This document shows, piece by piece, positions 7,574-33,136 of a DNA stretch of 64,000 nt. The translations under genes and the position numbers were made by a program. How positions within the stretch are numbered: the stretch's first letter is position 1; each line of letters opens with the position of its first letter. Below the pieces are notes generated by a model, which searched no databases, had not been told where the DNA came from, and was given only the letters and a program-made list of their open reading frames with translations. Source of the DNA: Candidatus Pyrohabitans jungbluthii (GTDB lineage Archaea > Hydrothermarchaeota > Hydrothermarchaeia > Hydrothermarchaeales > BMS3B); contig MTMD02000008.1 in assembly GCA_002010065.2 (NCBI GenBank), forward strand, positions 62,001 to 126,000, given 5' to 3'.

Positions 7574-7873
7574 ACAATAATGTTTACAAAGTGAAACAAT
7601 TTTTGTAAAAGGTTTCTACCTAATTATATGTTATATAATATATTTTTTACAATATATTTTTAAGCTAAGAACGATGAAATGTTTTACAATAATGTTTGCA
7701 AAATAATGAATATACAGGGAAGAGGTAACAAAAAACTATTGCCTCGGTAAAGATTGGTGATTTAGAAACTCTGCCGGGGTAGCCTAGCCCGGAAAGGCGC
7801 CAGACTCGAGATCTGGTGCTCGCAAGAGCTCAGGGGTTCAAATCCCTTCCCCGGCGCTATAATAATGTTTGCA
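7574..7873 (+). repeat. Three copies of AATAATGTTTRCA around tRNA-Ser
   Basis: Copies lie at 7574-7590 (ACAATAATGTTTACAAA), 7686-7702 (ACAATAATGTTTGCAAA) and 7859-7873 (ATAATAATGTTTGCA). All are in the same orientation, two before and one directly after the tRNA gene. The intervening DNA is extremely AT-rich. They may be regulator binding sites or scars of integration. The AT-rich background makes partial matches easier, but the third copy, next to the GC-rich tRNA, is hard to dismiss. Confidence 0.45.
7773..7856 (+). tRNA. tRNA-Ser(CGA)
   Basis: Acceptor strands GCCGGGG (7773-7779) and CCCCGGC (7849-7855) pair fully, with discriminator G at 7856. The anticodon stem CCAGA/TCTGG encloses the loop CTCGAGA, giving anticodon CGA. 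A long variable arm (GCTC-GCAA-GAGC) marks a class II serine tRNA. The T-loop reads TTCAAAT. No CCA is encoded and there is no intron. It borders the recombinase island, and tRNA genes are common integration sites. Confidence 0.95.
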
Positions 7874-32678: not shown

Positions 32679-32782
32679 ACCACATAACACCGCCTTGCAG
32701 AGGTGCTATATAGGTGCAGCCATGAATATAAATCCCTTTCTATAATGGTTATTGGTCGTTAAAGGTGGAAATAAAAACTGAC

Positions 32783-32855
32783 AGCCCCGTGGTGTAGCGG
32801 TCAATCATGCGGGACTCTGGATCCTGCGACGGCGGTTCGAATCCGCCCGGGGCTA
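32783..32855 (+). tRNA. tRNA-Gln(CTG)
   Basis: AGCCCCG (32783-32789) pairs with CGGGGCT (32848-32854), discriminator A at 32855. The anticodon loop CTCTGGA gives anticodon CTG. The T arm is GGCGG-TTCGAAT-CCGCC. No CCA is encoded and no intron is visible. The last 17 bases, including the discriminator, are repeated exactly at 32998-33014. Confidence 0.95.
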
Positions 32856-33014
32856 TCCAGGGGAGGGGAATGCCCCTCCCCTTCGGTATACCCCTCCCCG
32901 ACAGGGATACGAGGGAAAATACTATGGAAACATAGCGGTATTTAGCGTTAGCGAAAATACTGCAATATGATGATGCAACTGTCTGCAGTTGCGTTCTGAA
33001 TCCGCCCGGGGCTA
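32839..33014 (+). repeat. 17-bp duplication of the tRNA-Gln 3' end (att-like)
   Basis: GAATCCGCCCGGGGCTA occurs at 32839-32855 inside tRNA-Gln and again, identically and in the same orientation, at 32998-33014. A tRNA 3' end duplicated downstream is the usual signature of integration into a tRNA gene (attL/attR). Here only 142 bases separate the copies and hold no gene, so this is a tiny element, a deletion scar, or the tail of an RNA that reuses the tRNA 3' half. Confidence 0.7.
32860..32992 (+). ncRNA. Chain of hairpins behind tRNA-Gln, possible structured RNA
   Basis: Stems in order: GGGGAGGGG-AATG-CCCCTCCCC (32860-32881), possibly acting as the tRNA terminator; GTATACCC paired with GGGATAC (about 32886-32910, one bulge); CTATG-GAAA-CATAG (32922-32935), a GNRA-type tetraloop; GCGGTATTT paired with AAATACTGC (32935-32963), which shares one base with the previous stem; and GCAACTG-TCTG-CAGTTGC (32975-32992). 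Such a density of near-perfect stems is unusual for intergenic DNA. No known RNA family is recognised. Confidence 0.4.
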
Positions 33015-33136
33015 CTTACACTTTTTGATTTCAGTAAAATGATAGTTGCATGCCTGTTATATCAACACGGGAAGGTAATAACTGACAGACAATTATATAC
33101 ACAGGTCTTTTTAAAAAAATCAACAAAAAATATTAT

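Follow-up and report, generated by a model that had tools for sequence, protein, structure and literature searches.

The segment at positions 32856-32998 of the window, the 64,000-nucleotide stretch of Candidatus Pyrohabitans jungbluthii DNA that was analyzed here, belongs to a family of short, dispersed, non-coding elements, of which it is one copy. This family is probably a non-autonomous mobile element, moved by an enzyme that acts in trans and cuts tRNA genes with a stagger. What looked like a curiosity of one locus is a member of a dispersed family of miniature elements that target tRNA ends. Mobile DNA of archaea lands most often in tRNA genes, and the known users of these sites are large and carry integrases or casposases. 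The present element is tiny and non-coding, targets many tRNA identities without damage to the tRNA and is found across several families of archaea, which implies an integration activity that has gone unrecognised.

The last 17 nt of tRNA-Gln(CTG), GAATCCGCCCGGGGCTA at 32839-32855, recur as an exact second copy at 32998-33014. The two copies lie 159 bases apart, precisely where the sequence-only reading had placed them, and are separated by a spacer of 142 nt that is rich in hairpins. At 88% identity the similarity reaches 24 nt (GCGGTTCGAATCC.. versus GCGTTCTGAATCC..), and the longest match in 60 shuffles of the downstream flank was 11 nt versus the 17 observed. The hairpins that had been described between the copies, the GAAA tetraloop included, were found as well. 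The spacer holds a perfect 10-bp stem (AGGGGAGGGG/CCCCTCCCCT), a CTATG-GAAA-CATAG tetraloop hairpin and two more hairpins, and folding of the spacer together with the downstream copy gave z = -4.35, with none of 200 shuffles as good. The covariance model of the right module (R3) has a single match within the 64-kb window, at 32935-32993 with 60.4 bits. The features of the window are the following.

7773-7857, + strand: tRNA-Ser (CGA), an unoccupied site in the window genome (alignment with sister genome G001)
32783-32855, + strand: tRNA-Gln (CTG), the target gene, intact (ARAGORN; Rfam RF00005, 58.8 bits)
32840-32855, + strand: upstream copy of the 16-bp target duplication AATCCGCCCGGGGCTA, which is tRNA nt 58-73 (17 bp with G57)
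32856-32998, + strand: miniature element of 143 nt, from TCCAGGGG to GTTCTG (repeat search, multi-copy alignment, covariance model R1 with 167 bits)
32859-32882, + strand: left hairpin AGGGGAGGGG-AATG-CCCCTCCCCT, genus-specific
32922-32935, + strand: CTATG-GAAA-CATAG tetraloop hairpin, whose sequence other copies keep only in part
32935-32963, + strand: R-module hairpin 1, GCGGTATT..AATACTGC, of variable loop length (covariance model R3, pair counts)
32964-32973, + strand: conserved linker AATATGATGA (consensus RATMTGNNGR)
32974-32993, + strand: R-module hairpin 2, TGCAACTG-TCTG-CAGTTGCG, with strong covariation among copies
32993-32998, + strand: GTTCTG, the element-borne right border, T-loop-like, its first G being the last base of hairpin 2
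32999-33014, + strand: downstream copy of the 16-bp target duplication

The locus also contains a 13-nt near-repeat, TAAwAACTGACAG, at 32772-32784 across the 5' edge of tRNA-Gln and, 304 bases further downstream, at 33076-33088, which is possibly a remnant of an older duplication.

The window genome (G000) is an archaeal genome of 2.0 Mb in 15 contigs and is 99.95% complete. Searching it with the DNA of positions 32783-33020 gave matches at about nine other places beyond plain tRNA matches. It harbors about a dozen family copies, and related copies occur in several archaeal families. A covariance search for the hairpins, which the sequence-only reading had recommended, was run with models R1 and R3 and recovered further copies; R1 found the alignment set and weaker members. 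Copies in the window genome stand directly 3' of the tRNAs Gln(CTG), Val(TAC), Leu(GAG), Leu(CAG), Lys(TTT), Pro(CGG) and Arg(TCT), and another, where contigs C5 and C13 meet, follows a tRNA that was identified by eye as Glu(TTC). Both of these contigs (loci L018 on C13 and L009 on C5) end in the same tRNA-Glu(TTC), and the assembly break falls at the hairpin repeat. One copy (C15) comes after the stop codon of an ORF resembling MacB and some are intergenic. Across the family the adjoining tRNAs are those for Gln, Glu, Val, Leu, Lys, Ser, Pro, Arg, Gly and Asp. A chance repeat is ruled out by the dispersed copies and the shuffled-flank controls, and the earlier suggestion of a deletion scar was discarded, as the interior is a conserved repeat.

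In a pattern scan of named genomes, matches were confined to Hydrothermarchaeota MAGs (Ca. Pyrohabitans sp. JdFR-17 and relatives) and one MAG labelled Euryarchaeota (G015), which belongs to the same order as the window genome. A right-end pattern with 18 fixed bases gave 22 matches in 14 of 394 archaeal genomes, and its reversed control none. Together with the R3 model, this pattern located the element also in the archaeal families f21, f27, f48 and f102. Many of the matches touch tRNA genes; in G080 the element follows tRNA-Asp with a duplication of AAATCCCGGGCTCCGCGA. Viral contigs contained no exact match to two right-end patterns and one match to a degenerate pattern; this match has no duplication, and chance alone would give about as many in a collection of this size. 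Plasmids gave weak bacterial matches only. No Rfam 15 family scored above its gathering threshold for the element. The family appears to be undescribed as far as a limited literature search reached, in which no publication on it was found.

A duplication of the adjoining gene's end scored above 60 downstream-flank shuffles at 31 of 41 loci; the other 10 copies show no duplication above the shuffled control. Most duplications at tRNA 3' ends begin at nt 53-58 and stop at or just beyond nt 73. The usual block starts in the T-loop (nt 57/58) and ends with the discriminator base (nt 73) of whichever tRNA is adjacent. Where a tRNA-adjacent copy has kept its right end intact, the tRNA's own end in most cases follows GTTCTG: AATCCGCCCGGGGCTA behind Gln, AATCCCTTCCCCCGCA behind Leu(CAG) and AATCCGCCCCGGCCCA behind Val. 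GTTCTG stands ahead of the duplication at the tRNAs for Gln, Glu, Val, Leu, Lys and Ser. In tRNAs that read GTTCAAATCC (Leu, Lys and Ser), the downstream junction is still GTTCTGAATCC, and at tRNAs with A57 the downstream copy keeps GTTCTG|AATCC, which fixes the 58-73 register. GTTCTG thus belongs to the element, and the duplication proper comprises nt 58-73. In G011 the GTTCTG border is kept alongside an unrelated core. At one locus of this genome, from another family of the order, the synteny of a UbiA-like gene, a metallophosphoesterase gene and tRNA-Gln is kept (G011:C100:3362-5132, L296), and the tRNA-Gln carries an element with an unrelated core and the same GTTCTGAATCC junction.

The duplications measure 16-17 bp in the main class and 13-57 bp overall. 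tRNA 5' ends are duplicated in G011 and G017 (14-16 and 21 nt) and once in G060 (13 nt). Some copies duplicate the 3' end of a protein gene. At histidine-kinase genes of G015 the duplications measure 49-57 bp, and further duplications outside tRNAs measure 43 bp in G151 and 26 bp in G288. Tandem insertions that each re-duplicated the same end occur in G004C95 and G011C111. The element of G354 lies in reverse orientation to a tRNA end, which was recognized by its T-arm, and the duplicated segment, TGGGACCGCTGAGATTT, is the reverse complement of nt 57-73. The same block is thus duplicated whatever the orientation, as a staggered cut predicts.

Empty and filled sites were found among related genomes. 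The sequence-only reading had called for relatives with an empty tRNA-Gln site, and behind tRNA-Gln(CTG) the segment proved to be absent in the two congeners G002 and G003, with the site filled in the window genome and in G001; this comparison is imperfect, as the filled genomes contain about 100 nt of extra spacer. A region unfolded and unconserved in close relatives had been named as evidence against the idea; the segment is missing behind tRNA-Gln(CTG) in the two congeners, but relatives carry it, with its structure, behind other tRNAs. The tRNA-Gln(TTG) site is empty in the window genome and G003, filled in G002 and occupied by two tandem elements in G004, which have a tRNA end between them. 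The cleanest case is tRNA-Ser(CGA). This gene runs unbroken into its downstream flank in the window, and the orthologous locus of G001 contains about 96 extra nt, composed of an 80-nt element ending in GTTCTG and a second AATCCCTTCCCCGGCG, an exact duplication of 16 nt. As G004 also carries an element copy beside this flank, the state of the window genome could be an original empty site or a precise loss via the direct repeat. Under either history, the unit at tRNA-Ser is the element plus the duplicated target. The proposal of a miniature integrated element has therefore held up, as dispersed copies, target duplications and both empty and filled sites were found.

Across the family the elements are about 60-170 nt long and non-coding. 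The aligned copies have in common CCAGGGGAGGGG...GCGGTATT..AATACCGC AATATGATGA TGCAACTG..CAGTTGC GTTCTG. The right end is conserved and consists of two covarying hairpins joined by RATMTGNNGR. Among seven copies that were gathered by sequence similarity alone, seven pairs had changed on both sides. In 28 right modules this applied to 10 of 16 pairs, and shifting the pairing abolished the signal; the percentage paired in this set is inflated and is not independent evidence, since most modules were picked by a script that required pairing, and loops were trimmed. Hairpin 2 retains a U-G closing pair on the sense strand in the 28-module alignment. The left end is variable: a GGGGAGGGG hairpin forms this part in the window's genus and other sequences do so elsewhere, and it differs even among the orthologous tRNA-Lys loci of G000, G001 and G004. 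No terminal inverted repeats link the ends of the window copy, whose inverted repeats are internal hairpins, and visual inspection of further copies whose ends are defined revealed none. A DDE-type MITE was rejected for the missing terminal inverted repeats, a box C/D sRNA (TGATGA..CTGA) is not supported, as its motifs decay between copies, and a hammerhead or group II ribozyme was rejected because the core motifs misfit by inspection.

We infer mobility, staggered cutting and recognition of the right hairpins by an enzyme supplied in trans. Such an enzyme would nick the tRNA gene at the T-loop on one strand and at the gene end on the other. The element would then be inserted and the gap filled, which would keep the tRNA complete and put a second copy of its last 16-17 bp beyond the element. 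What the enzyme likely recognizes is the conserved pair of hairpins at the right end, joined by RATMTGNNGR, in the form of RNA or of folded single-stranded DNA, and GTTCTG would serve as the right border of the element within the window's genus. By landing at tRNA ends, the element would gain entry into an essential and highly conserved site and leave the host unharmed. Several points speak against mobility: the duplication length is variable, which is unusual for one transposase; 10 of the 41 copies lack a duplication above the control; deletion across the direct repeat could also produce a precise empty site; and the searches, which covered reverse transcriptase, Cas1, Y1 transposase, TnpB and tyrosine recombinases, gave no autonomous partner or enzyme. 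The first four of these proteins are missing from the window genome and do not follow the distribution of the element. At 20 loci no transposase-like ORF was recognized beside the right ends, and at most loci no distant duplication was present up to 18 kb upstream of them. One candidate for an autonomous copy (G010 C93, with a duplication 1.5 kb away) was rejected, as it encloses an acylphosphatase-like ORF and resembles a repeated gene end.

One alternative is a SINE-like retroposon, in which target-primed reverse transcription would copy a structured RNA into the tRNA gene. The 3' tail of this RNA, GUUCUGAAUCC, would anneal to the nicked strand of the T-stem, and a cut of the second strand would create the duplication. 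Terminal inverted repeats that were not seen, variable duplication lengths and a conserved 3' end are shared with eukaryotic SINE-type retroposons. A 5' end that varies even at one locus (tRNA-Lys), the U-G pair conserved on the sense strand of hairpin 2 and an element tail that matches the universal T-stem sequence are likewise consistent with this model. However, reverse transcriptase (PF00078) was found in none of the 16 Hydrothermarchaeales genomes G000-G015, which include the nearly complete window genome; it was found only in G016 and G021, both of which lack the element. The elements also differ from eukaryotic SINEs in having no poly-A or simple tail and in their strong targeting of tRNA ends, and the opposite-orientation copy of G354 is a poorer fit. 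Retroposition is thus considered unlikely.

The elements could also be remnants or miniatures of integrative elements, with the tRNA ends representing attL and attR of a tyrosine recombinase. tRNA 3' ends, sometimes 5' ends, and protein-gene 3' ends are classic targets of archaeal integrases (PMC6563490), and integrative elements of Thaumarchaeota use integrases on the same kinds of target (PMC6563490). A provirus with an integrase of such type occupies tRNA-His of the window genome; it extends over G000:C6:66000-79132 (L197), with tail/baseplate-like genes and a tyrosine recombinase next to the tRNA. Elements of the SSV/pNOB8 type and the Thaumarchaeota iMGEs resemble the present family in their kinds of target and in partial tRNA copies, but carry an integrase and element-borne att sites, with examples of about 9-23 kb. 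The 143-nt interior at tRNA-Gln is non-coding and contains no integrase gene, and it is a conserved repeat rather than a decayed element. Furthermore, one lineage with the GTTCTG border occurs in at least six different tRNAs with each tRNA's own 3' end on both sides, so that the element would need to carry the matching tRNA end each time. Tyrosine recombinases are common in the searched genomes, but PF00589 was not found in the element-bearing G006 and G011. An origin from att sites is therefore very unlikely.

It had further been suggested that the hairpins form a structured RNA linked to the tRNA. As a functional domain in tRNA trailers, it would act in processing, stability or regulation, with the duplicated end as a competitor or pairing partner. 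In favor of this suggestion, the hairpins covary strongly and the fold has z = -4.35. Within the order the copies are placed behind tRNAs on the same strand, and the downstream tRNA-end copies are intact while the elements diverge. A trailer RNA alone explains neither the duplication particular to each locus nor the inverted copy of G354 nor those at protein-gene ends, and the intergenic copies, the empty tRNA-Gln and tRNA-Ser sites in close relatives and the missing Rfam match also disagree with it, which renders this function highly improbable. An RNA-guided (TnpB/CAST-like) element can hardly be maintained: tRNA genes are known homing sites of CRISPR-associated transposons, and hairpins that resemble a guide-RNA scaffold have 16-17 nt of target sequence right behind them, of which 16 would be the guide, but TnpB is missing from the window genome and nearly all other element-bearing genomes and abundant in the element-free G005 and G007, a nearly anticorrelated occurrence, no motif is conserved 5' of the target (GTTC, AACCG, GAAGA, GTGT), and duplications of 43-57 bp exceed a guide's length.

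As a non-autonomous mobile element, the family is comparable to several known systems. Casposons insert at tRNA 3' ends and protein-gene 3' ends, with tandem insertion possible (PMC6977970, PMC6563490), and produce duplications of 14-15 bp at tRNA 3' ends (PMC6977970). The present elements share these kinds of target and tandem insertion, and their duplications measure 16-17 bp in the main class. However, casposons are multigene elements with terminal inverted repeats and Cas1, whereas the elements described here measure 60-170 nt and show neither. Cas1 (PF01867) was found neither in the window genome nor in the element-bearing G002, G004, G006, G009, G015 and G017. The duplication of the M. 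mazei casposon includes no more than the final 4 bp of the tRNA, in contrast to nt 57/58-73 here. A 1.8-kb element is known from Caldiarchaeum, where it has been associated with tRNA gene disruption (PMC3293823). The PATEs of Haloquadratum are too short to encode a transposase, lack terminal inverted repeats, have palindromes near their termini and produce no duplications (PMC3119063). Short length, palindromic ends and the absence of terminal inverted repeats are common to PATEs or IS200-IS605 derivatives and the present family, but PATEs lack the target duplications found here, and the Y1 transposase is missing in 21 of 22 element-bearing genomes tested. REP and REPIN sequences are similar in their hairpin module with a conserved single-stranded tag and in the occurrence of inverted pairs. 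Target-site duplication is not known for REP-type repeats, and the present family differs in having it; in addition, no Y1/RAYT-type protein was found in the window genome. REPIN-like inverted pairs of right modules, intergenic and with no obvious target duplication, are present at G000:C2:254124-254239, G000:C2:104112-104296 and G004:C36:36642-36793.

Taken conservatively, the element is of a kind already known, a non-autonomous mobile element, and the mobilizer leaves room for something newer. We tentatively consider that the family may represent an unrecognised class of archaeal mobile elements, present in several families, with an undescribed enzyme or route that would cut at the T-loop and the mature tRNA end and produce variable target-site duplications without terminal inverted repeats, reverse transcriptase, Cas1 or Y1. 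With its register (nt 57/58-73) defined and its right end conserved, the element opens the mechanism to direct test. The family also supplies a concrete origin for partial tRNA copies, which are a cause of confusion in annotation. Another short palindromic repeat, CCGGAAGCTnnGCTTCCGGgtaac with GTGACGAAGTTACCC, is scattered in the genus; it is inserted in one element copy (L010, G000:C14) and was also noted in the flanks of loci L011 and L012.
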